Shown one piece after another: positions 19,036 to 57,768 of a stretch of DNA of 64,000 nucleotides. The stretch is taken from NCBI GenBank assembly GCA_030158125.1, contig JAOATL010000019.1, forward strand, positions 62,001 to 126,000, in the 5' to 3' direction. The DNA is from Limnohabitans sp. Lineage in GTDB: Bacteria; Pseudomonadota; Gammaproteobacteria; Burkholderiales; Burkholderiaceae_C. A program made the translations under genes and the position numbers. Within the stretch, counting starts at the first letter, position 1. The number at the start of each line of letters is the position of its first letter. The notes beneath the pieces are model-generated. The model did no database searches, had not been told where the DNA came from, and saw only the letters and a program-made list of their open reading frames with translations.

Positions 19036-19128
19036 GGAAACGTGACCGAGTGGCCGAAGGTGCTCCCCTGCTAAGGGAGTATGGGGTGTAGAGCCTCATC
19101 GAGGGTTCGAATCCCTCCGTTTCCGCCA
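19036..19128 (+). tRNA. tRNA-Ser(GCT)
   Basis: GGAAACG...anticodon loop CTGCTAAG...long variable arm...GGTTCGAATCC...CGTTTCCGCCA. Confidence 0.95.
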
Positions 19129-19174
19129 GTACAAAGACCTCAAACCTGCCCAGCAGGCCTTGAGACAGCCTCAG

Positions 19175-19198
19175 GCCCCGCACCACGCGGGGCTTTTT
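19175..19198 (+). terminator. rho-independent terminator after tRNA-Ser
   Basis: GCCCCGC-ACCAC-GCGGGGC-TTTTT. Confidence 0.8.
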
Positions 19199-19396
19199 GC
19201 TTTGGGCTCCTGACTGCGACATCCCGCAGCAGCCCGGCAAAGTCGTCTCAAACCCCGTTTGTCTCAAAACCTCATGACTTTTTCGGACTTGGTTCCGAGC
19301 CTTGAATTTACGGGTTTCGGCATGACAGGCTTTGAACCAAGCCGAATAAAAGTTGGTGGTTCGGTTTGGGATCAGTGACTGGGCATTTGAGAATCG

Positions 19397-20200
19397 TCAT
19401 ACAGGGCCAGATAAACGGCTAAGTGTTCCGTCTGCAATCAGGCCATCAAGATATGTATTGGTCGAAATCAAGAATTCCGCGTTATTGATCAGGACGCCCA
19501 CTTCCAAGTTCCGGTTGAAAGCGTCGTCGGTAAGGTTGGCACTGGATATCAACGCGGTGTCGTCAATAATCGCCACTTTTGCATGGAGTTTTCCGGGACG
19601 CCCAGCCTGGTTACGTTCCCGTTTTTCGACTGGCCAGTGATAGACGTTGACCACTTTTATGAGTGTGGAAGGAAAGGCGTTCATTGCATCAAAGCTCAGT
19701 TGGCCTTCGGATGACTCTTCAAACTCAAGAATCAATCGAATTTTTACGCCACGCTGCGCGGCCTTCCAAAGCTCATCGGTCAATCGCTTTATCTTTGCCG
19801 CGGCAAAAGTTATCAATAAAATTTCGTGCTTAGCGTTCGCGATAAGGTCGTACAGTGCCTGGTCAATACGGCGCGCCGGTACTTTATTGGCTGGTGATGG
19901 TCCAGCCCACAACAATTCAATGTGCTGCTGAGCGCGCAAGTGATGAAAAGAGCTGGATGCAGTTTGAATTGCCCAGCTCAAAGCCTCCCACGACATTTGA
20001 CCTGATGCTGAGCGCACCGCCGAGGCCATAAGGAACGATACGTCTGCGTTAGCCGTAGCTGGCAATCGCTGGAGAACAAATTCCGCATTGGCATCGGCCG
20101 GCAGACTACGAAGGGTTTTGCATGCTGATATCAGCCAAGCTGTAGGTGCCTTGCGAATTAATTGTTCGACTGTGGTCAATAAATCGTCGAACATCAGCAT
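19397..20200 (-). CDS. drmC: DISARM DrmC, phospholipase D-like (HKD) protein
   Basis: KLHAKVAIIDDTALISSANLTDDAFNRNLEVGV HxKx4D motif; start set at 20200 where TGA of drmB overlaps ATG (TGATG). Confidence 0.85.
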   Translation of the reverse strand: MLMFDDLLTTVEQLIRKAPTAWLISACKTLRSLPADANAEFVLQRLPATANADVSFLMASAVRSASGQMSWEALSWAIQTASSSFHHLRAQQHIELLWAGPSPANKVPARRIDQALYDLIANAKHEILLITFAAAKIKRLTDELWKAAQRGVKIRLILEFEESSEGQLSFDAMNAFPSTLIKVVNVYHWPVEKRERNQAGRPGKLHAKVAIIDDTALISSANLTDDAFNRNLEVGVLINNAEFLISTNTYLDGLIADGTLSRLSGPV

Positions 20201-22038
20201 CAATCGAAGAACGCAGTACCGCGAGCAGAGAATGTATTCACTAGGACAGACCGGTCTAGGTATCGATTGCCACGCTCGCAAGACGTTTCGGGTGCGAACT
20301 GGCAGGCATGGCAGCAGGCACCCTGTATGCCGCGGCCAAGCGTATCAGGGCGATGCTCTGAACACAGCGGATCTGATGCGCAGAGTCGCATGCTTTCTAG
20401 ACCCTGCAACATGTGCCTGCCCAATGTCAGAGGATTACCAAGCTCAACCAAACCACCCAGAGTGCCCTCGCTGTCGGGCGCGGCTGTGTAGATCAGGATG
20501 CCTGCCATTGGGCCGCCTTCTTCACCCGGTAGTCGCGAGTACAAGCGCTCCCGCACGCTGGCGGATGTGTACCCACAGTCCAGTACGATTTGCCTCATGA
20601 GCGCATGCGCGAGCGAATGAAGCAGCACCAGTCGAATACCAGGAAATCCTTCACCCAGTGGCTGCAGCTTGCGCAGTTTGCGCCACGCTTTGTGTGAATC
20701 AAGAAACTCATGCTCAAGCTGCTGCACTTCTGGCTTGTCTTGCCAGGCCAACAACACTTCTTCTCGAATGCGCAAAAAGATACCCTCGCCCCTAACCTCA
20801 GACGCTGGGAGCCATTTGGGATTTTCGCGGCTGAGCTTGGTTAGCCGACCATCCATGGTGACAGTCGCTTCTGCAAAATCTGCGTTCGATTCAATACGGG
20901 TGAAGCCAAGCAGTGCCCGAACCTCCCGGATGCGTTCAACCAAAACGGTATCTTCAAAGAAGGCCTCAAATCCTTTTGGCGGCGCAACTCGGGTCAGTTT
21001 GAAATCGCGATTTTCAGCGGCAGAATCCGGCTTTGAAAAGACCTGCCATTCGGGAAGTTTAAGATCTTCGGCTGGGGAATTGCCACCCTGAATGCCGGAC
21101 CGTTTGAGTTCGATTGCAGCCCAAATTTCTTCATCGCTAAATTCAGAAAACAATGGAATTAACGACTGGTAGTTCTGCTGCTCCTCACGGTAGAAACCCA
21201 ACTTAGAGATGCTTGTAGCATTGGTCAGCTTGGACCACTGCTCTTCAATCAACTTTCCAATTTTATCGACAGCACGCGGGATGGATAAAGCTGAAAATGC
21301 GGTGGGAAACCAGCTGTTGGATGAGCCAAGCAAAATTGCCTTTGCCGGTTCGGTACATCCTTGTTCAATTAGGCGTAGATGCGGATGATGCCCCGTGCAA
21401 GCAAATGGTGAATCTGGATCAAATGCATCTGCCATGCGTCGTTCAGCACCACATCCACAACTAACAATAATGTCAGAAGCATCACCGGACGCGCCAAATT
21501 CGCGCATAGTCATCTGAGAGCCTTGGCACGGAACATTACCCTTGTGGACAAAGGCGCGCCATGGAAAGTCTGATAAGTGCCCTTCGCGGCACGCCACTAA
21601 AAAGCGAACTGACATAGCCGTGGGTGCTCGCCCACCTTGGCTCTTGAGGCATCCCTGATGGACATAGGCGGTTTTGTCTGGGCGATAAGGGTCTTGAACC
21701 AGCTTGAAAACACCGGATTCCACTGAGGACAGCGTGTCGCAAAGTGAGCAACGCATCCACCGAGGAAAAGGAACTACAGGCACGCCTACTGCTGGGGCTG
21801 CAGGGTCACGTTCCATACTTTCCAGCTTGATTGGCGGCAAATAAAGTTTACCCATCTGTGCGCCAAGGCGCTTCTGAATGGCTGCTACAAGACGGTCTTC
21901 ATCCACCTCCTTGCAGTAGCTCGTATCCCAATCGTCCAGACCCATGACCAAGCCTGAGATATTTGGCAAATCAACCAACGATCCGATACCAAAGGTGAAA
22001 ATCAGTTGGCTGGGACGGAGTTCTCCGAGTTCGTTCAT
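20200..22038 (-). CDS. drmB: DISARM DrmB, DUF1998-containing protein
   Basis: LRPSQLIFTFGIGSLVDLPNISGLVMG N-terminus, DUF1998-type C-terminus with Cys cluster CCHACQFAPETSCERGNRYLDR. Confidence 0.9.
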   Translation of the reverse strand: MNELGELRPSQLIFTFGIGSLVDLPNISGLVMGLDDWDTSYCKEVDEDRLVAAIQKRLGAQMGKLYLPPIKLESMERDPAAPAVGVPVVPFPRWMRCSLCDTLSSVESGVFKLVQDPYRPDKTAYVHQGCLKSQGGRAPTAMSVRFLVACREGHLSDFPWRAFVHKGNVPCQGSQMTMREFGASGDASDIIVSCGCGAERRMADAFDPDSPFACTGHHPHLRLIEQGCTEPAKAILLGSSNSWFPTAFSALSIPRAVDKIGKLIEEQWSKLTNATSISKLGFYREEQQNYQSLIPLFSEFSDEEIWAAIELKRSGIQGGNSPAEDLKLPEWQVFSKPDSAAENRDFKLTRVAPPKGFEAFFEDTVLVERIREVRALLGFTRIESNADFAEATVTMDGRLTKLSRENPKWLPASEVRGEGIFLRIREEVLLAWQDKPEVQQLEHEFLDSHKAWRKLRKLQPLGEGFPGIRLVLLHSLAHALMRQIVLDCGYTSASVRERLYSRLPGEEGGPMAGILIYTAAPDSEGTLGGLVELGNPLTLGRHMLQGLESMRLCASDPLCSEHRPDTLGRGIQGACCHACQFAPETSCERGNRYLDRSVLVNTFSARGTAFFD

Positions 22039-22048
22039 ATTATTTTCC

Positions 22049-25000
22049 TCAATCGGTCCGTAAACCGGTGGACCTCTGGTCTAGCACCAAGTCAACCGTG
22101 CCTTCAACGTCGCGCAACGAATTAAGACAGGTAAACATTTCCCAATCCTTGTCGCTAGCATCTTCCAGCAAGCCAACTGTGGCACCACCTTCTGACCGGT
22201 AACCTAACTTGTGATCAGTCTGTTTATGCACCCGACTGAGCCACGCATCACGCCTGCGATCCAGCATGTCTTTTATGCGTACAGCAACCGCGGGATCATG
22301 GGTGGCATTGGCCCCACGTTTACTCAGCACATCGAACACTTGTGCCCAGATGGGGTCAGTGTCTGTGACTTCGCCCGCCTTCATGTTGGCATTGAGGTGG
22401 TCATCTGCCAAACGCATTAGACCCACCATGACACCGGTCAAGCCACGGTCCAGCGCCCGTGCTGAGAAGGGAGTGACAGAAAGGGCTTCTACGTGTTTAT
22501 AAAAAGTCTCGTGATAGTGCTCAAAGCGCTCATAGTGAGACAGATCGCGAGGTCGAGCCCAGTTGAAAACCGTACTCACAAAGCCCGGACCATCATTGGA
22601 GCGGCCAACACGGCTTGTCGCCTGGATGTATTCAGAGGTGTTTTTGGGCTGGCCAGCGACCAGCATCAAACCCAAACGCTCAATATCAACGCCGACGGAA
22701 ATCATATTGGTGGCTAGCACGACGTCATAGGGCACTGCTGAAGTCATTGGCGTACCTGCCTTGCGCTCAGCAGCCCTCTGAGCCTCGAGCGTCTTGTCAA
22801 AGGTTGCCTCTAGCCGTTCAAGTATCTTTGGGATGTCAATGCCAGATTTACGGGAAGTCAATTCTTCTACCGCACCCATTCGAATCCGTCGCTTGGCCAG
22901 ACCACGTTGGTCAGCATCACGAAGGCGTGCCCGAATATCGTCACCAACCAGTCGCCGGGTACCGGCAAGCTCACGGATCGAGTTGAAGTATCCGGTAAGC
23001 GTCATCCACGGATCAGCTAGGCGGTCGTACTTTTCAAAGAGGACCTGAGAGGAAGCCATGTGAGCAACATAGCTGCGAATCAAAGCCACTGGATAACGAC
23101 GCCCGAAGGCGCTGATACCGATGTAACGTCTGCCAGGATATTGAGCGCCCGTAGGTCGCTGAATGGCGAAGAAGCTGTCGCGAATGCTGGTACCTTGTGG
23201 CGGAAACACTTCAAGCTTACGCACAAATAAGTTTTGAACCTGGTCGGGAGCGCGACGAATCGTTGCCGTAGATGCGACAACTTTGGGGCGTACCTTCTTG
23301 CCATCGACCACCCATGAACAGAGTTCATCTACTGCTGCTTCATACAAACCCACCATGGAGCCTAGCGGGCCGCTAATTAAGTGCAATTCATCCTGAATAA
23401 TTAAATCAGGCGGTCGCAGGAAAGAATGTGCTCTGTTGGTTACGCGGGGTAGACCATTGCGTGACGGATGAGACTGAGCGTCATCAACCTCAGGCGATAA
23501 AAATCCATGTCGATCACATACAGCATTGACCTTACCAAACAACATTTGTGTTTGGCCTTTCCATGGCATCTGCGCAAATTTATCCACTGTCGCAATCAGC
23601 AGGGAGGGGGGTCGACGATAGATTTCTTCGTCCACCACCATCACCGGCAAGCCCTCTTTGGGCGCTTGTTTTGCTGTGAATTCGCAGCGGCCCAGACTGT
23701 CACCACAGTACGTCACGCAGCGACCAATATCACTAGGCGCTTCATAGACATGAAGGTGTTGCTCCCTGATCGAACTGCCACACCAGGGACAGGACGTAAT
23801 TTGATGCGGTGTACCGGATGATGTTGGACGGCCACCTACATTGTGTTGGCGCAACGAGTTGGCAGCCGATGCCAGCGTATTTGGGGTGGTCTTGTTACCA
23901 ACCCACAGCCCCAAGCGGAATGGAGTCTCACCCCATTTGGCAACATCAGCACGGCGTATCGTTTCACAGGCGCACATCAAAGCCGCAGCACGTTGGAATT
24001 GTTGCAAGGTCAACAATCGCAGGGTATAGCGCATCAGGACCGCAATGCCATGCTCACCGCTTCGACCTTCAATCACCCCTTGAAGCCGACGTAAGGCAAG
24101 GGTGTAAGCGGTCAAGCCCAAATAAGCTTCAGTTTTACCGCCACCGGTGGCAAACCAGAGCAGGTCAGCAACGGCATCGGTTTCATGGCTTCGATCGGGA
24201 TGTTGCAGGTCGGTAAGGCTGGGCAGGTTGAGCAACACAAACGCCATCTGGAAAAGACGCCAGCTTCGGTTCTCAGGCTGGTCGAGCGAACTCGTACCAT
24301 CTTCAATTGTTAACGCATTTTTGCGAACTTTACGGGCAAAGATGGAGTGAATACGCTGTTGCCACATGGCACGATTGGCAAAGCGGAAAGCCTCCTCCGC
24401 TAGCGGATTAGACTCAATCAGGCTCACCCCCGCATTGATTCGCTCCAATGCCCGGCGGCAGCTCTTGACGGATCGCAGTGCCGCCTCTTCATGTCCTTGC
24501 AATCGCTCTTTGGGCAATTGCAGCTTGACCTCTTCAACGTTGATCCAGACCCGATAAGCCGTCTCGATATGGCGAAGGCTGGCGATCAAACCTTCCTTGG
24601 GTAGCTCGCTCAAGATCTTCATGTCCATGGTCAGACCAGCAAGGTTCTCGTCATCTTTGGCGGAACGAGGAGTTTGCTGGGGAACTTCAAACATTGGCAC
24701 CCATTCGGTTTCCACCATCACGGCACGCTCAGCAAGGGGCTCCGGTAATGTCGAATGAATAGAAATCCCGTGCCCAACAGCGAATTCGCGCTGGTGGCGA
24801 TACAGCATTTCAAGCGTTTCTGTCTCTTCACGGGTCAACGGATCCATGCGTGAAAGGTCCGCCTTGGCGTTCTTGCGCTGGACAAATATGGGTGCGTTAT
24901 CGGCACCATGTACACGCAGTTTTGGCTGGAACAACCAGACCTCGTCTTTGGGCTCATTACGGCCTTTACGCTCTTCTTGCAGGTTGACCATGAAAAGCGT

Positions 25001-25534
25001 TGCCACCCAACCATCAGCAGTTAGGCGCATACGCCCTTGCATCACAACCAGCGGATGGTCAGGATGCAGGGTCACAGGAGCAATAACACCGTCTTTCAGT
25101 TTGAGCGTCATTTGTGGTGCTATGACTGCTGTCCGCTTCCAGACCCTGGCGGGATTCCCGTCCTTTTTGAGTTGAGCTTCACTTGATACCTTGAGGTACT
25201 GCCCCCAATCGGCCTCAACCACAATTTCCTGTACGTCTGCGGCAACCACAAAGCTCAGGCCCATTGACGAGGGGAAATAGGTACTGCCAGCAGGGACACC
25301 TGAATCAGCTGGACCTTCTTCACCGTCATCCCCATCGCCAGTTGCTAGTTCATCTAATTCACCACCGTCAACTTCCTTGTCTTTTGGGGCGAGCATGCCT
25401 ACCAGATACCGCTGGTAAGCATGGTCTTCGTATTGATTCAATTCTTCTTCAGCGCCTCCAGCTGGGCCAAGCAGGTCACGAACAACCATGCTGGTGAGTT
25501 CGTTTCGAATGTCGGTGGGGGTGGCAATATTCAT
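22049..25534 (-). CDS. drmA: DISARM DrmA, helicase
   Basis: LLWFATGGGKTEAYLGL Walker A, IIQDELHLISG, QATSRVGRSNDGPGFV motif VI. Confidence 0.9.
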   Translation of the reverse strand: MNIATPTDIRNELTSMVVRDLLGPAGGAEEELNQYEDHAYQRYLVGMLAPKDKEVDGGELDELATGDGDDGEEGPADSGVPAGSTYFPSSMGLSFVVAADVQEIVVEADWGQYLKVSSEAQLKKDGNPARVWKRTAVIAPQMTLKLKDGVIAPVTLHPDHPLVVMQGRMRLTADGWVATLFMVNLQEERKGRNEPKDEVWLFQPKLRVHGADNAPIFVQRKNAKADLSRMDPLTREETETLEMLYRHQREFAVGHGISIHSTLPEPLAERAVMVETEWVPMFEVPQQTPRSAKDDENLAGLTMDMKILSELPKEGLIASLRHIETAYRVWINVEEVKLQLPKERLQGHEEAALRSVKSCRRALERINAGVSLIESNPLAEEAFRFANRAMWQQRIHSIFARKVRKNALTIEDGTSSLDQPENRSWRLFQMAFVLLNLPSLTDLQHPDRSHETDAVADLLWFATGGGKTEAYLGLTAYTLALRRLQGVIEGRSGEHGIAVLMRYTLRLLTLQQFQRAAALMCACETIRRADVAKWGETPFRLGLWVGNKTTPNTLASAANSLRQHNVGGRPTSSGTPHQITSCPWCGSSIREQHLHVYEAPSDIGRCVTYCGDSLGRCEFTAKQAPKEGLPVMVVDEEIYRRPPSLLIATVDKFAQMPWKGQTQMLFGKVNAVCDRHGFLSPEVDDAQSHPSRNGLPRVTNRAHSFLRPPDLIIQDELHLISGPLGSMVGLYEAAVDELCSWVVDGKKVRPKVVASTATIRRAPDQVQNLFVRKLEVFPPQGTSIRDSFFAIQRPTGAQYPGRRYIGISAFGRRYPVALIRSYVAHMASSQVLFEKYDRLADPWMTLTGYFNSIRELAGTRRLVGDDIRARLRDADQRGLAKRRIRMGAVEELTSRKSGIDIPKILERLEATFDKTLEAQRAAERKAGTPMTSAVPYDVVLATNMISVGVDIERLGLMLVAGQPKNTSEYIQATSRVGRSNDGPGFVSTVFNWARPRDLSHYERFEHYHETFYKHVEALSVTPFSARALDRGLTGVMVGLMRLADDHLNANMKAGEVTDTDPIWAQVFDVLSKRGANATHDPAVAVRIKDMLDRRRDAWLSRVHKQTDHKLGYRSEGGATVGLLEDASDKDWEMFTCLNSLRDVEGTVDLVLDQRSTGLRTD

Positions 25535-28500
25535 TCAGGTGATTCCAGCGTTGAATTTGATTTATAACGGGCTCCACGTTTTTCCCCGATACGCTCTATT
25601 TTTCCTGCCTCAAGCAAATCGCTTATGGTCACGCTCCATTTTTTTTCGGGGAAATTTGTGGCAGTAAGAATGGTCTCTTTGCTGTGCCAACCAGGATTAG
25701 CAGTTAGATAATCAGAAATTAATTTACCAATAAAGAGGCTATTTTGAGAAACATCGCGAAATAAATCTTCCTGATTACTAACTTGACTCTTGCTAATTTG
25801 GGTAGAGCTAATCGGCATTCTTTTTTTATGCAGTCCAGCGGAAATCTCTTCATTATGTCGCTTATGGTTAAGCTCCAACAACCTATCTAATATCTCTAAT
25901 CTAGCTGATTGGCATATAGTAAAACGTATTCCTTGTTTGGTTTCGTGAAATCCGTGCTCAAGATTAAGATCTGTCCATCCGTAAGCAGCCGCAACTGTTT
26001 CATCAATTTGTATAATTGTGGTGCGAAATTCTAAAATGTCATCTTGCTGATTTATTGGATCATTAATCATATTCTCAAGTGCCGTAAGACCTAGGTCATA
26101 GGCATCCATTAAGCCCCGCCTTTTTCTTAAAAAGCTAACTTCAATTGCGTTCAGGGACGTTGCATCTTCAGGGAATGGGAAAGTTTCAAAGCAATCTGTT
26201 AATGCATAGTTGTACCCTGCATTCCGCATGCTGGAACCATAATAAGTGCTCCATGTCCAATGAATTGAACTTTGAAGCAGTATTAATGGGTTATCACAAA
26301 GTACGGCAAGTCGTTGATCAAATACAACGCCATTATCAATATATTCAAATGCCCAAGAAGAACTAACTTGTGTTTTGACAAGAACTTTTTTAAGTGAAGC
26401 AATACGGGCATAAAGAGACTTCTGTTTTTCTGCAAATTGCCACCAAATATCTCTATAAACTGGACGTTTCACAAGTGCTCTTACTGGCTTAACATCCTTT
26501 TCTAAAATATCCAGTAGATCCGGATAATCTTCGGCAACAGGATGAGGGTAGTCTTTGGGAACAACTCCAGTCCGCAAGAATTTCTTTTTATCTAACTCAC
26601 TGGATGAAATCCATAATCCAACATCAGAACGTTTTAATGGCCAGTCGTGGAAGTTTATAATCCATCTCCTAGGAGATTGATCAACCCTCGAGTTCAAATC
26701 TTCGCCATTTATGTAAGGGAAAAGGCATTCCTTATTTTTGGGGGATTTTTGTATTAAATTTTGAGCGGCTTCGTAGCTCAGAACAAATCCCTTTCCCAAT
26801 ACGACATTACCTTGGTATGAGCTATTTGAGTTGCTTTTTAGTTGGAAAGGTTTTCCTTGCGTTTTGCCAGGAACACTTAGCATGGAGCTAATTTTCTTAA
26901 CTTCTTTGCCGTCAAGATTAAATTTCCCTTTCCAATTATTTTTTGAAAACCATATAAGAGAAACATCAATGGCTGCCATACCTGGCCAAGGCATTGAAAC
27001 AATAGCCCTTATTAAATCTCCTCCACTGGATGTAATTTGATCTAGCCCTACATCTCTTGTGTCACCTTGTGAAATGGTATTGGTTGAAATTACGCCAGCT
27101 ACACCTTCTTTCCGCAATAATTTTGCCATTCTTAAAATGAAGAAGGCACTTAAATCTGCATTGCCTTTCACGCCATTAGCTATGTGCGCAGTCAGTAGCT
27201 CACGATAATCTGACCCAAGCACACCAGAGATTTTTTTTCCACCAATAAATGGAGGATTTCCAACAAAAGCATCAAAACCACCGCTTTCAATTATTTCAGG
27301 AAAAGTTAAGTTCCAATGCAGTGCATTACGACCAGCTAATTTTTCGTGGGAATAACTTTTAAGTTCTTGAAAACCCTTATCCCAATAGGAAATCATTGTC
27401 TCAGCGGACGTTTCACGTCCTAATTCATAGGCTCTTCCCTTCAGTCCTTTTAATTCAACCGCCATAAGTGCGTCAGCTGCTGCGCTTAGCATGGCAACTG
27501 AATTTTCAGCCTCCGCATAAAGGATTGTCTTGGTTTCAATTTGCTCTGGAGTGTCTGATTGCATTAACTTCAATGCATCTCTTTTTTCCTTTGCGTTCTT
27601 CAAACGTTGCCTCATATCGAGTGTGCCAAATGACTGCTGCTTTCCACCACCAGGCCGTAAGCTGAAGTTTTCTAATTGTTCAAGCGCCGTAATACCCAGC
27701 AAAGAGTCGCCGCACTTGAAGCCGTGATCCAAAAAGGTGAATGGACGGTTTGCATCAACGGTAACGAGCCAGAGTGAAAGTTTGGCCATTTCAACCGCCA
27801 TCGGGTTGATGTCAACACCATAAAGACAACGATCGGCTACAACACGGCGGGCAATGGCTATACGTTCTGCGGCTTCGACGGGCACCAAACGCTCACTAGC
27901 GGATCCATCAGAGAAATTGCCATCGGGCGTGATCAGCAATTGGTCAGGATACAGCTTCTCCTCATTTTCCCAAGATTCAACCAGACGTTCTGCCAGGTAG
28001 CGGCACGCTTGCACCAGAAAAGCTCCCGAACCCATCGCCATGTCACAGACCTTAAGGTCAAGAATGTCCCTGGGGGACTTGAGCGTCCATTGCTCACGCG
28101 GCCAGCCGTTAGAGGGGCCTAGGTAGACCAGTGGCTCCAGCGTGTGCTGGACGATAGGCTCAGTAAGTGTTGGGGGCGTGTAATGGGTGCCAGAACTGCG
28201 CCGGTCGGTGCCCGAGGTGACATAGACGCTTCCAGTCAGTACTACCAATGGGCGCTCAAACGAATCTTCGCGGATCAGACGGGCAAAGGGCAACAGTCGG
28301 ATTAGCAAGGCTTGGTCGTGACCGCAGGAGACCAGAAGCTTGTGCTCATCAAGCAGACTGCCATCGTCGAGTGATTTGCGTATCGCAGATAGTGAGCGAC
28401 CGGTAGTTTCTTTTAGAAATTCGACGAGCTTATCCTGACCTTCTGCGAACAAGGACTCCAGTTTGGAAAGTGGGATTTCAGCTTCCTTGTTGCGAGGGCC

Positions 28501-29868
28501 TTTGATGCCCAGCACTGGTTCTGAAGCGAGAACTCCCGTGTGATCAAGCAAGCCCTCATAGACGTGGCCAATTTGTTCAACCCCGAGGGCGCGAAAGGAA
28601 ATGCGCCGTGTCTCAGCCATACCACCTGCGCTGGATTTCATACGCAAGCGTTGTAAAGAATTGAGTAGATGCAGCACCACTCGGTTATTGACCCCCAGAG
28701 GTTCGGCTGTGGTTTTACGCCAAAGACTACCAGCTGCCCTTCCTTCAAGGAATGGATATCGGTCTGGATCAAACAATGAGCCGCCGTAGGCTTGCATCAA
28801 CAGGTCTTGATGCTTGACGCCACCATGCACAGCCCGGAAGCTGGACAACAGGCGTGCCCAAGCATCGGTCCGGCGCTCCAAAACTTCTTCGCCATAGAGG
28901 TCAGCAATTTCCTGCAGTTGCTCCTGCAATGTTGAAACCGCGTAGTTGTTGTCATACAGCGGCTTGCCGAGGTGCAATAAACCACGTTCCTCCGCCGAAA
29001 ACAAGAAAACCAGCCGCATCATGATGGTCAGTGCAGCTTCATATTGCGCAGTTGGGCTGACGCCCTCCAAAAGGATTCGATTGCTATCCTTGTCAAGTGC
29101 ATCAAAGGACTGGACCAGCACCTCTACAGCTTCACGCACCTGAAAACCAAGCTGATCGGTAACCTCTTGCTGGTCATTGGCACTTTCCTTGAGCAATGCT
29201 AAGAGCGTGCTGTTATCAGCAACCCCAAAGAAGCGGCGCACACCTAGAAGGGAGTGAAAAGCACGCAAAGTGATGGGCTCGTCCAACCAAAGGGCACCAA
29301 ACCATGATGCGTACCCTGTGATTTCCCCGCGGGGTGCGTATACAAGCATCCATTGCTCGCCATTCGTTACCAGACCCAAGGGAACATCTGCGCCATGCAG
29401 TAATTCCATCATTCGCGTAGCGGGGGTTGCTTTCCAGTGCTTGCCTATGACTGGGCGATCAAGTTTCTGCTCAGCGGGGTAGCTGGAGATCAGCAATTGA
29501 GCCTTGCCACTTGTATCTGTACCGGCTGGACCAATCAGAGCAAAGTCAGGGCGCAAGGTTTCACCCATTTCTGGCATCTTAGCTTCCAAGCCTGCAGGAA
29601 GAGCTTGCCCTTCAACAACTTGACTTGCCGGGTAACCAAGCACCGTTGTTAGGACATGGAGCACCCACGCGCGCTGTTGTCCAGGTGCTGCAGGGTTGTC
29701 CTGCCATTCCTCATATGCGGCGCGCAGAGCCTTTGCCTGAGTTGGATCTCGCGGCTCCAGACCATGCGAAAAAACTCGAAGCAATACCGGTAGCGAAACA
29801 AACGGCCCTGATATCTCAACAAGGGACAACCAGTCAGAATGATGGCGAGAAGCGGTGTGGGCGCTCAT
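25531..29868 (-). CDS. drmMI: DISARM class 1 adenine-N6 methyltransferase DrmMI
   Basis: DMAMGSGAFLVQACRYLAERL motif I, FVGNPPFIGGKK motif IV; 4-nt overlaps with both neighbours. Confidence 0.88.
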   Translation of the reverse strand: MSAHTASRHHSDWLSLVEISGPFVSLPVLLRVFSHGLEPRDPTQAKALRAAYEEWQDNPAAPGQQRAWVLHVLTTVLGYPASQVVEGQALPAGLEAKMPEMGETLRPDFALIGPAGTDTSGKAQLLISSYPAEQKLDRPVIGKHWKATPATRMMELLHGADVPLGLVTNGEQWMLVYAPRGEITGYASWFGALWLDEPITLRAFHSLLGVRRFFGVADNSTLLALLKESANDQQEVTDQLGFQVREAVEVLVQSFDALDKDSNRILLEGVSPTAQYEAALTIMMRLVFLFSAEERGLLHLGKPLYDNNYAVSTLQEQLQEIADLYGEEVLERRTDAWARLLSSFRAVHGGVKHQDLLMQAYGGSLFDPDRYPFLEGRAAGSLWRKTTAEPLGVNNRVVLHLLNSLQRLRMKSSAGGMAETRRISFRALGVEQIGHVYEGLLDHTGVLASEPVLGIKGPRNKEAEIPLSKLESLFAEGQDKLVEFLKETTGRSLSAIRKSLDDGSLLDEHKLLVSCGHDQALLIRLLPFARLIREDSFERPLVVLTGSVYVTSGTDRRSSGTHYTPPTLTEPIVQHTLEPLVYLGPSNGWPREQWTLKSPRDILDLKVCDMAMGSGAFLVQACRYLAERLVESWENEEKLYPDQLLITPDGNFSDGSASERLVPVEAAERIAIARRVVADRCLYGVDINPMAVEMAKLSLWLVTVDANRPFTFLDHGFKCGDSLLGITALEQLENFSLRPGGGKQQSFGTLDMRQRLKNAKEKRDALKLMQSDTPEQIETKTILYAEAENSVAMLSAAADALMAVELKGLKGRAYELGRETSAETMISYWDKGFQELKSYSHEKLAGRNALHWNLTFPEIIESGGFDAFVGNPPFIGGKKISGVLGSDYRELLTAHIANGVKGNADLSAFFILRMAKLLRKEGVAGVISTNTISQGDTRDVGLDQITSSGGDLIRAIVSMPWPGMAAIDVSLIWFSKNNWKGKFNLDGKEVKKISSMLSVPGKTQGKPFQLKSNSNSSYQGNVVLGKGFVLSYEAAQNLIQKSPKNKECLFPYINGEDLNSRVDQSPRRWIINFHDWPLKRSDVGLWISSSELDKKKFLRTGVVPKDYPHPVAEDYPDLLDILEKDVKPVRALVKRPVYRDIWWQFAEKQKSLYARIASLKKVLVKTQVSSSWAFEYIDNGVVFDQRLAVLCDNPLILLQSSIHWTWSTYYGSSMRNAGYNYALTDCFETFPFPEDATSLNAIEVSFLRKRRGLMDAYDLGLTALENMINDPINQQDDILEFRTTIIQIDETVAAAYGWTDLNLEHGFHETKQGIRFTICQSARLEILDRLLELNHKRHNEEISAGLHKKRMPISSTQISKSQVSNQEDLFRDVSQNSLFIGKLISDYLTANPGWHSKETILTATNFPEKKWSVTISDLLEAGKIERIGEKRGARYKSNSTLESPE

Positions 29869-32800
29869 GACCGGCTCCTTGTGATCTCAAGTACCGCTTT
29901 ACGCGGAATCAGCCAGGTGACAGCAACTGGAAAAAGCCTCGCACTCGGATTGGAAAAGCGAGATCGGATGTGATCGGATTCACGCTGAATTTCTTCTGGA
30001 ATTTCCATGATGCGGCGGTGCAGAGCTGCGAGATCATTTTCCCTCTGACGTTTGCCAGGTTCATCTGCGCCAAGATCCAACACCATTTGCGGACCATCTT
30101 TACGATCCAGCTCAGCTTGGATGGCGCGTTGGAGCTCCGTCATTACGGTCTTGATCTTGTTCACTTCTTTTTCGGCCAGCTCTTCAAGGTTCTTTTCCAG
30201 ATTCTTTGTGCGCTCGACACGACGGACATCCAGTGATGCCAGCAATGCATCCCGATTTTTAGCCCACAGGGCCTGAAAACGTTCCTCAATAGCCGCTGGT
30301 ACAGGGTTGTCTGTCGCAGCTTCCAATGCAGTTTTTGTTTCGCCAACGTTAAGGCGACTGAAGCGGCCTTCAATCAGCGCACCGCCCGCAGTGATGACTT
30401 CTTCGTGAAGGCGGTGGTTATCACCTCCTAGTACGACGATACGGCCATGGGCAATGACTACCGGGTGGCTCAAGGCTGAGTCGTCAACAATGCAGGCCGA
30501 TACCCTTGATAGGTGCTTAGCTTGAGTCCCCAAGGACCAGATTTCAGCACGCAACAAACGCAGGCACATTTGAACCAATCTGTGGTTAAGGTGGGCAAGC
30601 ACTACATCATCGCGTCCGGTGGCAAGGGCAGCGTCGAAGACGATGGGGCGTACCCTCTTGTTATGCGGATGGGCAAGCCCATCGGCACATTGGGCCCAAC
30701 TGTTTGAAAGAGCTGGTAAGCGGAAGACCGGGCAGGTTTTCCGCACACCGGTGGGATCAGGCCAGATGCCCTCAACATTGACCGGAATTAGCGCCGGTTG
30801 CTCGGCCAGTTCAAGACCAACACGGACCACGTTTTCTATGTGCTCAGGTGTCAGGTTCAGCTCATGCTGGGTTTCATGTAATTGGGACGCGAGTTTTTCC
30901 AATTGCTCACGCAGCTTGCGCTCAAACTTCAGCATTTTGCGTACTGGTTCAGCTTCCAGTTCAGCGCGCGTGGTATCAAGCCTGCTGCGTCGTCCAAGCA
31001 TGGCTTCTTCAACCTGGCTGGCAATAACGGGACCCACTTTGCCAAGATCTTCTCGGATAGTCTCAACCTTGAGGGCAGCCCGCATCAGGAATTCAAGGTC
31101 ACCTTCTAAATCACCTACCTTGCCGGAAACACTGGCGTCGGCAAAGCCGCGGCCAACGAAATGGTGAATGTGGACTTCATCAGCTTTTTGGCCATGACGA
31201 TCAACACGGCCATTGCGCTGCTCCATGCGATTCGGGTTCCACGGAATCTCAAAGTGAATAAGCTTTGAGCAGTGGTTTTGTAAGTTGACACCTTCTGATG
31301 CGGCGTCGGTGGCCAACAGAATCCGCACTTTGGATTCCTTCGGGTTGGATTGAAACGCCGCCTTGATGGGTTCGCGCAGGTCATTCATCATGCCCCCAAA
31401 GATCATTTCTAGGCGTCCATCCGCGGCCAAACCCTCACGGGCCAGCAAATCGAAAAGCCATTTTTGTGTGGCGCGGTATTCGGTAAAGATGATGACGCGC
31501 TCGTCATTCCACTGACCACCGGTTTGCAAGGTAGTTTTAATCCAGTCGATCAGCGTTTGTGCCTTGCAATCAGGTCGCTGCGTGCTCTTGGCGGCAAATT
31601 CGCTGAGCTCACGCAGTAGCGCCTTTTCTTCGGTAGATATGGGCGACAGAGCCTGGCTGACAGCGCTAACAACTTCCCCGGTTTCGACTTCGTAAGCTTC
31701 ATCATCGGCATAGTCATCCGAAAAATCTTCAATCTCACGATGGAGGTTGCTGGCTAGCTTGCGACGGCCAACCGTGTCAATGTGCTTTTTCAATGTGATG
31801 CCAAAGGCGGCAGGCGATGAAAACAGCCGCTTTTTAAGCAGCTTCAAAACAAATTCGGTGGCCATGCGTTCGCCGTCCGTCGTGGCCTGCTTCAAGCGCA
31901 ATTCAGAATATTGGCGCAAAGCTTGGTGAGCCTGACGCTCTTCGTCGGTGTGGGGTACCTCAATATGTTTGACCATGCGCTCAGCAAAGCGACGACTCCC
32001 ATCCCAGCGCAGCTTGAGTTCGGACTTCATTCGTCGGACCATGACTGCATCGAGCTGGTTGCGGTCAGGAGTGACAGCCCGAGCAAATCGTTGGTTATCA
32101 AGTAACTCCAGAAGTGCAGCAAAACTTTCGCGATAACCGTTATGCGGGGTAGCTGACAAGAAAAGCTTGTGCTCAAAATGCGGACCCAGAGAGCGGATTG
32201 CCGTGGTGCGCTGGGAGTCCGTGGCGTACTTTCCACGGCCAGAGGGCGCAACGTTGTGCGCCTCATCCACGATCATTAGGTCATACGCGCGCGGGTAGGT
32301 TGGCTGGTCACCTGCGGGAAGCGTTTCACGGAAGGTGCGTAACGGTCTTTCGCGCTTGAGAAAATCGATTGATGTGATCAACCGCGGGAAATGTGACCAT
32401 GGATTGACATGGATACCCCGCTTGCGACGCAGCTGGCTAATGGTTTCACTGTCAATGATGCGAAATTCCAGACCAAATTTGTCGCGCATTTCTTCCTGCC
32501 ACTGCACTTGCAGGGAAGATGGGCAGATGATCAAAACTGAGCGCACCCGGTGGCGCAGGATCATTTCCTGTACCACCAAGCCAGCTTCTACCGTTTTTCC
32601 AAGCCCGACGTCATCGGCAATTAGCAGATTCACCCGCGGCATGGACAGGGCGCGGACCACCGGATCCAACTGATACTCGTCAATTTCAATGCCACTGCGG
32701 AAGGGTGATTGCAGGGCTTTGTCATCAGCCTGGGAGACTGCTCCCCAGCGGACTGCATCTAAAAAGGCCTGTAAGCGTTTTGGATGGTCGAATGAATCAG

Positions 32801-33020
32801 GGTCCGGTAGCGTGGATTTTTCATGCACCTGGGTGCCGGGTTCCAGCTCCCAAATGACATTCAGTTCTTCGCCAATCCCATCATCCTCGACGGAGGACAG
32901 CTTGATTAGGTGGGTGGGCCGTGCACCATCGCCGCCCAAACCAGGAGCGGAGGGAATTATTTCCGTTACGACAAATGGTCGTTTCCGAACGATAGCAAGT
33001 TGACCAATTTCGGGAGTCAT
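29865..33020 (-). CDS. drmD: DISARM class 1 SNF2-like helicase DrmD
   Basis: LLIADDVGLGKTVEAGLV, VDEAHN, LLATDAASEGVNLQ, QRNGRVDRHGQ. Confidence 0.88.
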   Translation of the reverse strand: MTPEIGQLAIVRKRPFVVTEIIPSAPGLGGDGARPTHLIKLSSVEDDGIGEELNVIWELEPGTQVHEKSTLPDPDSFDHPKRLQAFLDAVRWGAVSQADDKALQSPFRSGIEIDEYQLDPVVRALSMPRVNLLIADDVGLGKTVEAGLVVQEMILRHRVRSVLIICPSSLQVQWQEEMRDKFGLEFRIIDSETISQLRRKRGIHVNPWSHFPRLITSIDFLKRERPLRTFRETLPAGDQPTYPRAYDLMIVDEAHNVAPSGRGKYATDSQRTTAIRSLGPHFEHKLFLSATPHNGYRESFAALLELLDNQRFARAVTPDRNQLDAVMVRRMKSELKLRWDGSRRFAERMVKHIEVPHTDEERQAHQALRQYSELRLKQATTDGERMATEFVLKLLKKRLFSSPAAFGITLKKHIDTVGRRKLASNLHREIEDFSDDYADDEAYEVETGEVVSAVSQALSPISTEEKALLRELSEFAAKSTQRPDCKAQTLIDWIKTTLQTGGQWNDERVIIFTEYRATQKWLFDLLAREGLAADGRLEMIFGGMMNDLREPIKAAFQSNPKESKVRILLATDAASEGVNLQNHCSKLIHFEIPWNPNRMEQRNGRVDRHGQKADEVHIHHFVGRGFADASVSGKVGDLEGDLEFLMRAALKVETIREDLGKVGPVIASQVEEAMLGRRSRLDTTRAELEAEPVRKMLKFERKLREQLEKLASQLHETQHELNLTPEHIENVVRVGLELAEQPALIPVNVEGIWPDPTGVRKTCPVFRLPALSNSWAQCADGLAHPHNKRVRPIVFDAALATGRDDVVLAHLNHRLVQMCLRLLRAEIWSLGTQAKHLSRVSACIVDDSALSHPVVIAHGRIVVLGGDNHRLHEEVITAGGALIEGRFSRLNVGETKTALEAATDNPVPAAIEERFQALWAKNRDALLASLDVRRVERTKNLEKNLEELAEKEVNKIKTVMTELQRAIQAELDRKDGPQMVLDLGADEPGKRQRENDLAALHRRIMEIPEEIQRESDHIRSRFSNPSARLFPVAVTWLIPRKAVLEITRSRS

Positions 33021-33229
33021 TGCTGTTTCCTGTCAAAGTGGCGCACTTTGTCGCGCTTGAATGAGAAATTCAAAGGATGCATTTTGGTGAGGCTCTCCAG
33101 TTCTTGAAGTTCGCCTGAACTGCTTATTAGGGTAATTTCATAGCCTGACCTATAAATTCTCTCAACACGCCATTCTTTCTCCCGAATGACTGTTTGAGAG
33201 CCAGGTGTGTTGGCCAACATGTGGTTCAT
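33017..33229 (-). CDS. uncharacterised 70-aa protein in the DISARM operon
   Basis: ATGA overlaps at both ends (33017-33020 with drmD, 33226-33229 with the WYL gene). Confidence 0.65.
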   Translation of the reverse strand: MNHMLANTPGSQTVIREKEWRVERIYRSGYEITLISSSGELQELESLTKMHPLNFSFKRDKVRHFDRKQQ

Positions 33230-34149
33230 TCAATGTTCCTTAACTCACTAACCGACCTACTCGAGGGATACCCGGGAGCAAGTGCAGCGCTTTCAACGCC
33301 GTAAAGTGTTTGTGAATTTTTCAACCAAAGATGGTGCTCTTTGGGGTCCAAGGTGTGCTTGGTCGAGCAATCAACTGACCAGCGTCTCAAGGCATAACCG
33401 ACGAGTGGGGCTCGCATGTCAAGCGCCAGCATGCCGTTGTGCATCATGAAGTCAGCCTCGATCGCCTTGGGGTGGGCAATGCCCGGGTGGGGCACCAGCT
33501 CGATATGGACCAGTCGTGCCCACTGCACATCTGACTCAATTTGTTCTTCGACTGGGATGGGCTGGTCAATCGGCTTTGCCTTGACGATCCGTGTCAATGC
33601 AAAGTCGGCAAAGCGGCCCCGCTCACGGTCATACGCGCGCAAATGCCAACGTAGGCCCGTGTCGGCCAAGGCCAGAGGGCACAGCGTCTTGGTTGACGCC
33701 CCTGAGGTCAATGACAGGTAATTGACTTTGACTTGGCGTCTGCCAGCGATGGCTCGGGTAAGTGTTGCCAGCGTTTCGATGTCGGGCTTGACCAGGTCGC
33801 TGGCGCTTTCACAGGGAACAGTGCGCTTGAGCTTTTGGTCCATGTTGTCACCAAAGCCTGCGCGGAACCAGGTGAGCACACGCTCTGCAGAGTGCTCGAA
33901 CAGCGGGGTGAAGCGGTCGGTCGTTGCGTACTTTCGCTGACCTGCGTCATAGAAGAGGTTCAGTGGAGCCAGGCGGCGGTACGTGCTCAGGTCGCGTGCT
34001 GATGCGGCAGGCTTGACCCCAAAGCGTCGCTCAATGTCCGCGCGAGTCAGATCGCCGCAGAAGAAGGCTTTGACTTCAATGTAGAAAAGTCGCTCTCGTT
34101 GCGTCTGCGTCAGGTCGTCAAGTGCAGCAGCGACTCGTTTGTTGACCAC
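33226..34149 (-). CDS. WYL-domain transcriptional regulator (BrxR/CapW-like architecture)
   Basis: N-terminal wHTH-like region, WYL core (VNYLSLTSGASTKTLCPLALADTGLRWHLRAYDRERGRFADFALTRI), C-terminal extension; first gene of the DISARM operon. Confidence 0.8.
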   Translation of the reverse strand: MVNKRVAAALDDLTQTQRERLFYIEVKAFFCGDLTRADIERRFGVKPAASARDLSTYRRLAPLNLFYDAGQRKYATTDRFTPLFEHSAERVLTWFRAGFGDNMDQKLKRTVPCESASDLVKPDIETLATLTRAIAGRRQVKVNYLSLTSGASTKTLCPLALADTGLRWHLRAYDRERGRFADFALTRIVKAKPIDQPIPVEEQIESDVQWARLVHIELVPHPGIAHPKAIEADFMMHNGMLALDMRAPLVGYALRRWSVDCSTKHTLDPKEHHLWLKNSQTLYGVESAALAPGYPSSRSVSELRNIE

Positions 34150-34181
34150 GGATTTGTCTCCATCTTATTTGCTCGTGTTCC

Positions 34182-34247
34182 ACTCTAGCATATTCAATGA
34201 CTACACTTAATCATTTTGATGCAGATAAGCGGCATTGGTGCTAGAAT
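34182..34247. promoter_or_regulatory. candidate divergent extended -10 promoters flanking an inverted repeat
   Basis: TGCTAGAGT (minus, 34190-34182) and TGCTAGAAT (plus, 34239-34247); TTCAATGA-N10-TCATTTTGA between them. Confidence 0.5.
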
Positions 34248-34312
34248 TTTTTTAGAACGATCAGGTTGGATCCGGTCGCCAGGCCCGAAATCATCACTTT
34301 TAGGAGATGAAC

Positions 34313-34603
34313 ATGTCTTTTTGGCAAATCTTGGGGCGATTCGCTGTGTCCGACACCGGTGAAACATTGCAAAAGGTCTCGGACACCACCAGCGTCTCGT
34401 CTGACGGCACGACCTACACAAAGATGGGTTCGACCACCGTTGGGTCAGATGGGTCTGTCTTCACTCAGATGGGAAGCTTTAGCACCGACGGCAGCACTCG
34501 CATGGGAAGCACTGCCACTGGACTTGGTGCTGTTTTCAACAACTCGAGCGACGACTTTGGGATTGGCTCCAAAAAATCCAGAAATGACTTTGACGATTTT
34601 TAA
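34313..34603 (+). CDS. small repeat-rich protein (SDG..MGS repeats)
   Basis: AGGAG RBS 5 nt before ATG at 34313; repeated SDGTTYTKMGS/SDGSVFTQMGS/TDGSTRMGS. Confidence 0.65.
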   Translation: MSFWQILGRFAVSDTGETLQKVSDTTSVSSDGTTYTKMGSTTVGSDGSVFTQMGSFSTDGSTRMGSTATGLGAVFNNSSDDFGIGSKKSRNDFDDF

Positions 34604-34608
34604 GGTAC

Positions 34609-35139
34609 TTGAACTTCATGCAGATTGAAATCGTCATTGGCAATATCGTCCAGCAACCGGATGTCGATGCGCTGGTTAACTCAGCCAACGCCAACCTTCG
34701 CTTTGGATCAGGCGTGGCCGGTGCCATTCATACTGCAGCCGGGCCAGAACTTGAGCAGTATTGCCGCCGCCATTCACCGATTGCGCTGGGTGAAGCTGTT
34801 GTGACCCCCGGCTTTGAACTGCCCAACCCATTTGTGATTCACACGAGGGCAGCCAGTTTCATCAATGACGATCACCCCGAGAAATACCTCGACCTTGCCG
34901 TTGCTCAGACTCTCCGTGTGGCCAAAGAAGCAGGGATCAAATCAATGGCCATGCCCGCGATCGGAACTGGCGTTTTCAAGTTCCCACCAGAGTTGTCTGC
35001 TGAAATCATCATTAACGGCCTAGTGAGTCGAAGTGAGGACTACCCAGAGATCCATTTGGTACGGATTTGCGTTGGTACGCAAGAAATGAAGGCCGTTTTC
35101 GCTTCTACTTTGGCTGCAAAAATATCTTCTCCTGCATAG
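34609..35139 (+). CDS. macro-domain protein (ADP-ribose-binding)
   Basis: GNIVQQPDVDALVNSANANLRFGSGVAGAIHTAAG and PAIGTGVFKFP; start may be ATG 34618. Confidence 0.88.
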   Translation: MNFMQIEIVIGNIVQQPDVDALVNSANANLRFGSGVAGAIHTAAGPELEQYCRRHSPIALGEAVVTPGFELPNPFVIHTRAASFINDDHPEKYLDLAVAQTLRVAKEAGIKSMAMPAIGTGVFKFPPELSAEIIINGLVSRSEDYPEIHLVRICVGTQEMKAVFASTLAAKISSPA

Positions 35140-35503
35140 ACCAGTCCATCGGGAACGGCTCCATTAGGTCCTTCATCGTCAGGTGTGCCGGGTACTTCCC
35201 GTCCAGGATAGCTTCGACGATCGTGGGTGACAGGTAGGCCAGGCGCAGGATGCGACTCACAAACGATGGGCTGATGTTCTCGGACTTGGCCATGTCCTCA
35301 ATTGACGCGTGGGTTCCGTCAAATAGTTTGCGATGCCAGCGGTGGCCACGTGCCAACAGTTTGACCATGGCGTTGTCAATCAGTGCCTCACGCCGCTCAA
35401 TGGCCCGAGAACCGTCGGGCAGCACGATGACTGCCTTGCCACCGCGCCTGCGAAAAGTCATCGGAATCTCGGTGGTGAAACCCGCTTCAGTCTCTTGGCT
35501 CAT
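35105..35503 (-). CDS. recombinase-associated HTH protein (candidate accessory/directionality factor)
   Basis: ENISPSFVSRILRLAYLSPTIVEAILDGKYPAHLTMKDL; ATGA overlap with recombinase. Confidence 0.6.
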   Translation of the reverse strand: MSQETEAGFTTEIPMTFRRRGGKAVIVLPDGSRAIERREALIDNAMVKLLARGHRWHRKLFDGTHASIEDMAKSENISPSFVSRILRLAYLSPTIVEAILDGKYPAHLTMKDLMEPFPMDWSMQEKIFLQPK

Positions 35504-36843
35504 GCTGCCTCCAGTTCTTTTTGTGGTTCAAGTGTGTCGAGCAACAGTTTGTTCAAACCCTTGTCGTGCCACTTGATGGTGATGCCGCTCTTGCGCACCG
35601 TGATGCGCTCGACCAAGGTGTGAAGGACCTTGGCCTGCTCAGCCGGAAATAACTCTTCCCAGATCGCGTCGATGGACTGCAATGCTCCAACGGCATGCGT
35701 TTCTTCCACCGTGGGGCGCTGTGTGTTGACTTCACGAACCGCGTGGGCCAGCACCTCAGGTGAGCGCAGGATGCCACGCATCTTTTCAACCACCACCTGT
35801 TCGATCTCACCTGCAGGGATGCGGCAGATGTCGCAGCTTTCCTTGCCGATCTTGATCGAGTCGGTGTTGATGTAATAACGGTAGGTCTTGTTCTGCTTGC
35901 GCGTCCAGCCCGGCGTGAAGGCCCGTCCTTGCTCAGAAAACAGCAACCCCCGCAGCAGGGACGGCGCGCTGCCACGTCCGGCCAACCTGGCCTTGTTCAT
36001 GGGTGTGCCGTTTTTAAGGTGCGTCTGCACCGTATCCCAAAGCTCCTGGGTGATGATGCCGTCGTGCTCGCCAGGGAAGTGCTGTCCCTTGTAGGCCGCA
36101 ATGCCAATGTAGACCGGGTTGCTGAAAATCTTGTAGACCGCGCCCTTGGTGATCAGCTTGCCTTGGCGTTCGACGCCCTTGGAAGTTGTCCAGGACTTGG
36201 AGGTGACGCCGCGTTTGCGCAGGTCTTTGACGATGGTGGACATTGATGGCGTCGCAGCAAAGCGGGAGAACATCTCTTGGATGATGGCCGACTCGTGCGG
36301 ATTGGCCACCAGCTTGCGCTCCACCACGTCATAGCCCAGGGCGGGCATACCGCCCATCCAGATGCCTCGCTTGCGGGAGGCTGCGATCTTGTCGCGTACC
36401 CGCTCTCCGGACAGTTCGCGTTCAAACTGTGCAAAGGACAGCAGGATGTTGAGCGTCAACCGCCCCATGGAGGTGGTGGTGTTGAAGGACTGGGTGACCG
36501 ACACAAAGGTCACCTTGTACTGATCAAACAGTTCAACCAGTTTGGCAAAGTCGGCAAGCGATCGTGACAACCGATCGATCTTGTAGACCACGATGGTGTT
36601 CACCAGGCCCTTACGGACGTCTTCGAGCAGTCGCTTGATGGCCGGGCGTTCAAGCGTACCGCCGGAGAAGCCGCCGTCGTCGTACCGGTCCTTGAGCATC
36701 ATCCAGCCCTCAGACTTTTGGCTGGCAATGTAATTGGCGCAGGCGTCGTGCTGGGCATCCAGCGAGTTGAAGTTTTGGTCCAAGCCTTCTTCGGTGGACT
36801 TGCGGGTATAGATCGCGCACAGGACTTTAGGAGTGGCGGTCAT
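35500..36843 (-). CDS. large serine recombinase (resolvase/integrase)
   Basis: AIYTRKSTEEGLDQNFNSLDAQ, YKIDRLSRSLADF, recombinase zinc-ribbon region. Confidence 0.93.
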   Translation of the reverse strand: MTATPKVLCAIYTRKSTEEGLDQNFNSLDAQHDACANYIASQKSEGWMMLKDRYDDGGFSGGTLERPAIKRLLEDVRKGLVNTIVVYKIDRLSRSLADFAKLVELFDQYKVTFVSVTQSFNTTTSMGRLTLNILLSFAQFERELSGERVRDKIAASRKRGIWMGGMPALGYDVVERKLVANPHESAIIQEMFSRFAATPSMSTIVKDLRKRGVTSKSWTTSKGVERQGKLITKGAVYKIFSNPVYIGIAAYKGQHFPGEHDGIITQELWDTVQTHLKNGTPMNKARLAGRGSAPSLLRGLLFSEQGRAFTPGWTRKQNKTYRYYINTDSIKIGKESCDICRIPAGEIEQVVVEKMRGILRSPEVLAHAVREVNTQRPTVEETHAVGALQSIDAIWEELFPAEQAKVLHTLVERITVRKSGITIKWHDKGLNKLLLDTLEPQKELEAA

Positions 36844-55152: not shown

Positions 55153-55156
55153 ACTG

Positions 55157-56674
55157 ATGGGACTGTTTACCTTTTTTGATCGCTTTCGCGGATCTGGTGG
55201 CTCCAACGCCTCAGGTGGAGATCGTTCGCCATGGGGTGACTTTTCATTTGAGTCGATATCTGCGCGTACCAGCAGTGGCATGCGTGTCTCGCCCGATAGC
55301 GCGCTGCGCCTAGCTGCTGTGTATGCATGCGTGCGGATCCTGGCCGAAACAATTGCATCACTGCCGTTGGTGGTTTACCAGCGCCGCCCTGACGGCGGCA
55401 AGGACAGGGTCACGGACCACTGGCTTTGCCGCTTGATGGCCAAGCGGCCGAACCGGTTTCAAAATCCTTTTGAGTGGCGTGAGATGCTGCAAGGACACCT
55501 GGCTTTGCGAGGTAACGCCTTCAACCAGATCATCACCAACCCGCGTGGCGAGATCATCGAACTCATGCCGATCCACCCGGACCGGGTCAAGATTGAGTTG
55601 TTGCCATCAGGTGAATACCGCTACCGAATTAGCGACCGCTCTGGCACTGAGGTGATCTTGCCAAGAGGTGAGGTCTGGCATTTGCGTGGCCTGTCCTCGG
55701 ACGGCTTGATGGGTATGAGCCCGATTGAGCTTGCCCGGGAGAATCTGGGTACTGCACTAGCAGCCCAAGGCTATGGCGCACGTTTCTTTGCCAATGACGC
55801 CAAGCCTACAGGAGGGTGGATTGAATTTCCTGGCTCGTTCAAGGACTCCGAGGCCAAGAAGGTGTTTCGTGAGTCTTATCAGCAGGCGCAGTCCGGCTCC
55901 AACCGGGGCAAGGTCCTGGTGTTAGAAAACGGCATGAAGTTTCACGAAGTGGGCGTCACAAACAAAGACGCCCAGTTTCTGGAACTGCGCAAGTTTCAGA
56001 TCACCGACGTGGCCCGGCTCTTTCGTGTGCCACCGCACATGATTGCTGATCTTGATAGAGCGACCTTCTCCAACATCGAGCAGCAGAGTCTGGAGTTCGT
56101 CATGCACACCATGACGCCCTGGGCTGAGCGCTGGGAGGCCAGCATTCAATCTGAGTTACTTCTTGAGAGTGACGATATAGAAATTGAGTTTGATTTCGCC
56201 AATCTGATGCGCGGCGATGCGTCCAGCCGCTCAAGCTACTACCAAAGCGGAATTCAGAACGGCTGGCTCACCCGCAACGAAGCACGCATTGCAGAAAACC
56301 TCAATCCCATTGACGGACTTGATCAGCCACTGCGACCACTCAATATGGTCGAGGAGGACGTGGCAGAGGATGTGGAAATCGATATAAAAGCAGAAGCGGC
56401 AGAGCCACTGGAGCAAAAAGCGATCGAGCCTTCAGTGGATGAGAGTGTTACCCGACTCAGTGGGCGATATAGCGCCCTTGTTAAAACGACCTCTGAGCGA
56501 CTTGCTCGCCGCATCGGCCGATCAGATCATCTGGCAGAAAAAGATATCTTGTTGATCTCCCAAGCCTTGGCCGTACCGCTAGACCAGGTTCAGCTTTGGG
56601 CAAGCCAAATAGACGAGCCGCTAGATCAAAAACAGCTCACCGAATCACTTATCTCCCTCGGACAGAATTTATGA
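55157..56674 (+). CDS. HK97-family portal protein
   Basis: HWLCRLMAKRPNRFQNPFEWREMLQGHLALRGNAFNQI; RVPPHMIADLDRATFSNIEQQSLEFV. Confidence 0.93.
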   Translation: MGLFTFFDRFRGSGGSNASGGDRSPWGDFSFESISARTSSGMRVSPDSALRLAAVYACVRILAETIASLPLVVYQRRPDGGKDRVTDHWLCRLMAKRPNRFQNPFEWREMLQGHLALRGNAFNQIITNPRGEIIELMPIHPDRVKIELLPSGEYRYRISDRSGTEVILPRGEVWHLRGLSSDGLMGMSPIELARENLGTALAAQGYGARFFANDAKPTGGWIEFPGSFKDSEAKKVFRESYQQAQSGSNRGKVLVLENGMKFHEVGVTNKDAQFLELRKFQITDVARLFRVPPHMIADLDRATFSNIEQQSLEFVMHTMTPWAERWEASIQSELLLESDDIEIEFDFANLMRGDASSRSSYYQSGIQNGWLTRNEARIAENLNPIDGLDQPLRPLNMVEEDVAEDVEIDIKAEAAEPLEQKAIEPSVDESVTRLSGRYSALVKTTSERLARRIGRSDHLAEKDILLISQALAVPLDQVQLWASQIDEPLDQKQLTESLISLGQNL

Positions 56675-57615: not shown

Positions 57616-57618
57616 TTT

Positions 57619-57750: not shown

Positions 57751-57768
57751 ACGTCTGGAGAAACCCAA

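Follow-up and report, generated by a model that had tools for sequence, protein, structure and literature searches.

The window analysed here, a 64,000-nt stretch of Limnohabitans sp. DNA (contig JAOATL010000019.1), carries on its reverse strand a complete class 1 DISARM operon, in which drmD, drmMI, drmA, drmB and drmC all score above the cut-offs of their NCBIfam or PADLOC models (Table 1). The operon is headed by a WYL regulator gene, and between this gene and drmD lies an open reading frame of 70 codons (the 70-aa ORF). The DISARM genes sit between tRNA-Ser(gct)/lysC and a prophage integrase gene (19036–36843), genes for a terminase, a portal and a major head protein lie at 53440–59106, and the operon is probably the terminal cargo of a prophage. 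A search towards the far end of the contig, which stops within the prophage, revealed no attachment repeat of the tRNA-Ser region. An ORF at 34609–35139 (+) encodes a macro-domain-like sequence (VDALVNSANANLRFGSGVAGAIH); several related viral contigs also have it next to their integrase. Within the operon, the 3′ half of drmMI (25531–27800) is AT-rich, with a GC content of 0.38–0.44 against 0.53 for the remainder, which suggests that the C-terminal part of this methyltransferase has been exchanged.

Table 1. Features of the DISARM locus, in window coordinates.
Feature	Positions	Strand	Description	Support
drmC	19397..20281	-	Phospholipase D-like, 294 aa	NF038319 202.5 bits (cut-off 133)
drmB	20200..22038	-	612 aa	NF038324 668.9 bits (cut-off 240)
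drmA	22049..25534	-	Helicase gene, 1161 aa	NF038325 1384 bits (cut-off 950)
drmMI	25531..29868	-	Methyltransferase gene, 1445 aa	PADLOC DrmMI 1708.9 bits
drmD	29865..33020	-	Class 1 DISARM helicase, SNF2-like, 1051 aa; own predicted SH3-like N-terminal domain	NF038317 1332.7 bits (cut-off 610)
70-aa ORF	33017..33229	-	Favoured reading: remnant of the N-terminus of a DrmD-type SNF2 helicase	Recognisable part, residues 5–39 (about 33113–33217)
Module joint	33226..33287	-	Inside the 3′ end of the WYL gene	Related prophages that carry other cargo cease to be homologous at about 33272–33287 (DNA)
WYL regulator gene	33226..34149	-	BrxR family, 307 aa, GTG start, ATGA overlap with the 70-aa ORF	Pfam WYL; PDB 7qfz
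Integrase gene	35500..36843	-	Serine-recombinase-type prophage integrase, anchors a variable cargo site	phrog_95 integrase, E 1e-102; cargo differs among 62 viral loci

Over its residues 9–296, the WYL protein aligns with the BrxR-family structure 7qfz (residues 6–294 of the latter) at an E-value of 1e-74. Judged by its sequence, which combines a WYL domain with near-full-length likeness to BrxR, the gene belongs to the BrxR family. Many types of defence system have a gene of this family at their head (PMC9122601). As with BrxR and CapW, the gene described here stands at the head of a defence operon, although in this case the downstream system is DISARM, which is unmentioned in the main text of PMC9122601.

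The 70-aa ORF is present in the DNA as originally read, and its translated product is MNHMLANTPGSQTVIREKEWRVERIYRSGYEITLISSSGELQELESLTKMHPLNFSFKRDKVRHFDRKQQ. Its start shares the nucleotides ATGA with the stop of the WYL gene (33226–33229) and its stop shares ATGA with the start of drmD (33017–33020), exactly as a preliminary description of the locus had stated. Shine-Dalgarno-like stretches precede both the ORF (TTAAGGAACATTGAATG) and drmD (ACAGGAAACAGCAATG) and, because of these and the overlaps, the ORF is probably translated. The overlaps do not set it apart, since four-nucleotide overlaps are a pattern of the whole operon, occurring also between drmD and drmMI (29865–29868) and between drmMI and drmA (25531–25534). 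The same description was right that the ORF is richer in AT than its neighbours, with a GC content of 0.446 versus 0.571 for the WYL gene and 0.535 for drmD. A value this low is found in ~1.6% of 213-bp segments of the locus when the AT-rich part of drmMI is set aside and in 13% when it is included. The length alone is not rare, as 5.8% of dinucleotide shuffles yield such an open frame; a chance origin for the open frame together with an ATGA junction and a Shine-Dalgarno-like sequence at both ends, all kept in three copies, is unlikely. No Rfam match was obtained in 32800–34700, a consensus scan of 32900–34400 returned neither promoter nor terminator, and RNA folding at the start of drmD is no stronger than in shuffled sequences (z 0.33).

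Kinship and occurrence of the 70-aa ORF

The ORF belongs to no PADLOC, NCBIfam or PHROG family and has no Pfam match above cut-off, the sole Pfam candidate (NXF_NTF2; E 0.041, 14.4 bits) being dismissed as it falls below the cut-off of 27. Pfam detects no SNF2 or Helicase_C motor domain within it, no solved protein chain matches it by sequence, and protein searches returned one irrelevant short match from the plasmid collection and none from the phage collection. Searching 401 same-family genomes did yield weak matches, seven of which are to the extreme N-terminus of a single helicase family, aligned start to start. Most members of this helicase family are about 1,000 aa long, and the family scores against DrmD profiles; on plasmids its members are mostly found in two-gene operons with large N6-methylases, and one, from Martelella, lies directly behind a WYL gene. 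Named examples of such DrmD-type SNF2 helicases in helicase and N6-methylase operons are WP_032282177.1 (E. coli plasmid) and WP_018065924.1 (Martelella).

Against a domain profile built from 17 of the helicase N-termini, the ORF scores 21–23 bits over residues 5–39, while the best of 20,000 shuffles reaches 9.7, a test that is somewhat optimistic because the profile helicases were themselves found using the ORF as query. Profile–profile comparison gives a probability of 82–88%. A chance match is unlikely given the start-to-start alignment and the kinship of the helicase family with DrmD, and residues 5–39 share homology with the N-terminal domain found in DrmD-type SNF2 helicases. Common to both is the motif PG-x(3)-(V/I)-x-R-x(3)-W-x-(V/I) at the protein start. 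In contrast to those helicases, the ORF lacks a motor and its C-terminal half is unrecognisable, scoring no better than shuffles against the N-terminal profile; a frameshifted continuation of the helicase was sought in the other two frames without success. The WYL-linked helicases of four other loci (L075, L077, L087 and L100) gave no match to the ORF. Three weak, full-length-looking matches (L050, L052 and L055), which lie in unrelated contexts, were set aside.

The preliminary description had likened the ORF to the N-terminus of DrmD and to a small SH3-like barrel. The first likeness holds for residues 5–39 at the level of DrmD-type helicases in general; the closest match is the sister family just described and not DrmD itself, for which the profile likeness is weak (4.3 bits, with 146 of 20,000 shuffles as good) and the profile–profile comparison is not significant. 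DrmD, the product of the neighbouring gene, retains its own copy of the domain. As to the second, a five-strand, SH3-like small barrel is predicted with moderate confidence for the DrmD N-terminus (pLDDT 66), with SH3-like domains from eIF5A and EF-P as its nearest solved folds (best Foldseek E 0.028). The ORF itself has an AlphaFold model (pLDDT 41) that, like the Foldseek matches obtained with it, is too poor to interpret.

A scan of genome contigs for DrmD gave 45 loci and, together with a search of 399 genomes, 49 drmD loci outside the window with upstream sequence. The ORF is present at just one of these (L025, from Limnohabitans sp. Rim8; 98.6% identical), which is also the only one to contain the WYL gene. 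A locus with a 97% identical drmD (L002) has neither. The viral-contig scan added one further copy, 90% identical (L058), and these two are the only other copies found, both in the order WYL–ORF–drmD; a class-wide search of 360 genomes produced no match beyond chance. The ORF therefore fails as a recurring component of the class 1 DISARM operon. At some other loci, small excisionase-like helix-turn-helix ORFs hold the place of the WYL gene before drmD (L032, 4660–4980; L045, 4542–4928; L017, 3494–3646).

Substitution pattern and the module joint

Comparison of the window with L058 gives 8 nonsynonymous and 2 synonymous changes in the ORF (pN/pS 1.02), as opposed to 6 and 36 in the WYL gene (pN/pS 0.05) and 21.4 and 53.6 in the first 491 codons of drmD (pN/pS 0.13). 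Fisher tests find the ORF to differ significantly from both (p 0.00014 versus WYL; p 0.0023 versus drmD), as does a comparison by codon position only (p 0.016). Just 10 substitutions underlie the ratio for the ORF; constraint as strong as a pN/pS of 0.1 is rejected (p 0.001) while 0.3 is not (p 0.09). The substitutions thus look near-neutral in the ORF and constrained in both neighbours. Six of the seven amino-acid changes fall outside the homologous core (residues 9–39), which may be mildly constrained. Between the window and L025, 70 of 921 sites differ in the WYL gene (mostly synonymous), 2 of 210 in the ORF and 36 of 1473 in drmD, an unequal divergence from which it follows that recombination has made a patchwork of the locus even between closely related copies.

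DNA homology between the window and L102–L104 ends within the 3′ end of the WYL gene, and other DISARM loci are homologous from codon 2 of drmD onwards. The ORF occupies precisely the interval between the prophage block and the DISARM block. Close relatives of the WYL gene lead into other cargo. In the viral contig L102 a 92% identical copy, beside the same integrase, is followed by a DUF499-type operon, the second ORF of which is PglZ-like by eye, with no model confirming this; in L104, also viral, an 88% identical copy precedes hsdM and hsdS of a type I restriction–modification system; and in L137 a 75% identical relative stands ahead of DUF499 and DUF1156 genes. The regulator overlaps the first cargo gene by four nucleotides at 3 of 33 other WYL loci, including an ATGA overlap with an SNF2 helicase gene in L075. 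It is this first-cargo-gene position behind the regulator that the 70-aa ORF holds. More widely, the cargo behind the integrase differs among 62 viral contigs whose integrases belong to this family (L123–L184), comprising DUF499-type operons, type I restriction–modification genes and a DUF1156 methylase-like gene, as well as a PAPS-reductase-like gene in L171 and metal-resistance-like genes in L130. This variable region has the look of a defence hotspot in prophages.

Origin and possible roles

We consider it probable, albeit with considerable reserve, that the ORF is the relic N-terminus of a helicase at a cargo-swap junction, serving at most as a translational bridge. The sequence of events that we infer would begin with a DrmD-type SNF2 helicase gene, of the kind usual in helicase and N6-methylase operons, as the first cargo behind a BrxR-family WYL regulator beside the prophage integrase. 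A class 1 DISARM operon would then have been brought in behind the regulator and the helicase gene lost except for its first domain, leaving a stump between the regulator and drmD. This stump is probably still translated, its sequence shows no detectable constraint, and at most its translation may carry ribosomes from the WYL message to drmD. The reading is favoured because the recognisable residues match helicase N-termini start to start while the rest is missing or unrecognisable; because the ORF is absent from 48 of the 49 loci, including that with the nearly identical drmD; and because its pN/pS is so far above those of its neighbours. It is also favoured because the matched helicases form N6-methylase operons and that of Martelella directly follows a WYL gene, because the ORF fills the homology gap while close WYL relatives head other cargos, and because at some WYL loci an ATGA overlap joins the regulator to the first cargo gene, in one case that of an SNF2 helicase. 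Counting against a relic are the frame kept open with both overlaps in three copies, the small number of substitutions with their distribution largely outside the core, and the failure to find, behind any close WYL relative, an intact donor helicase with the N-terminus of the ORF.

A chance open frame in spacer DNA, with no gene remnant in it, would be consistent with the shuffled sequences, with a pN/pS of about 1 and with the fact that no curated family claims the ORF. It is nonetheless highly improbable, as the match to the helicase profile lies far above shuffles, the alignment with helicase N-termini runs start to start, and Shine-Dalgarno-like sequences and ATGA overlaps frame the ORF. 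Alternatively, the peptide itself could be irrelevant and its translation could couple drmD to the WYL message, setting the dose of DrmD. The ATGA overlaps at both ends in all three copies and near-neutral amino-acid changes without a stop speak for this idea, which we regard as rather unlikely to be the explanation: drmD has a Shine-Dalgarno-like sequence of its own, the RNA at its start shows no unusual folding, overlaps are common across the operon, and ten stop-free substitutions are equally expected of a recent relic. A bridging role is nevertheless compatible with the relic reading, and a passive form of the coupling peptide first proposed is possible.

The other role first proposed, that of a stand-alone helicase adaptor, has fared less well. 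Here the ORF would be a working N-terminal domain, encoded separately, that acts on the DISARM helicase as adaptor or regulator by binding DrmD or DNA. Helicase-N-terminal homology beside a helicase of the same broad kind would be expected of such a protein, as would the Shine-Dalgarno-like sequences and overlaps at both ends and a core bearing only one of the seven amino-acid changes. However, the conservation at other drmD loci on which the proposal depended is lacking, the C-terminal half is unrelated to the domain, the substitutions look neutral beside constrained neighbours, and DrmD is predicted to have such a domain already, so that an adaptor is unlikely. Also quite doubtful is a fast-evolving version of this idea, in which the domain would dock on DrmD or tune it while changing rapidly, perhaps as a target of phages.

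The relic reading argues against entering the 70-aa ORF in the DISARM parts list. If the adaptor reading were true, there would be DISARM helicases with a movable, separately encoded front domain. The pairing of a BrxR-type regulator with DISARM is itself worth recording, and the locus offers a readable example of prophages swapping whole defence systems behind one such regulator, the joint being marked by what is probably the stump of a gene.
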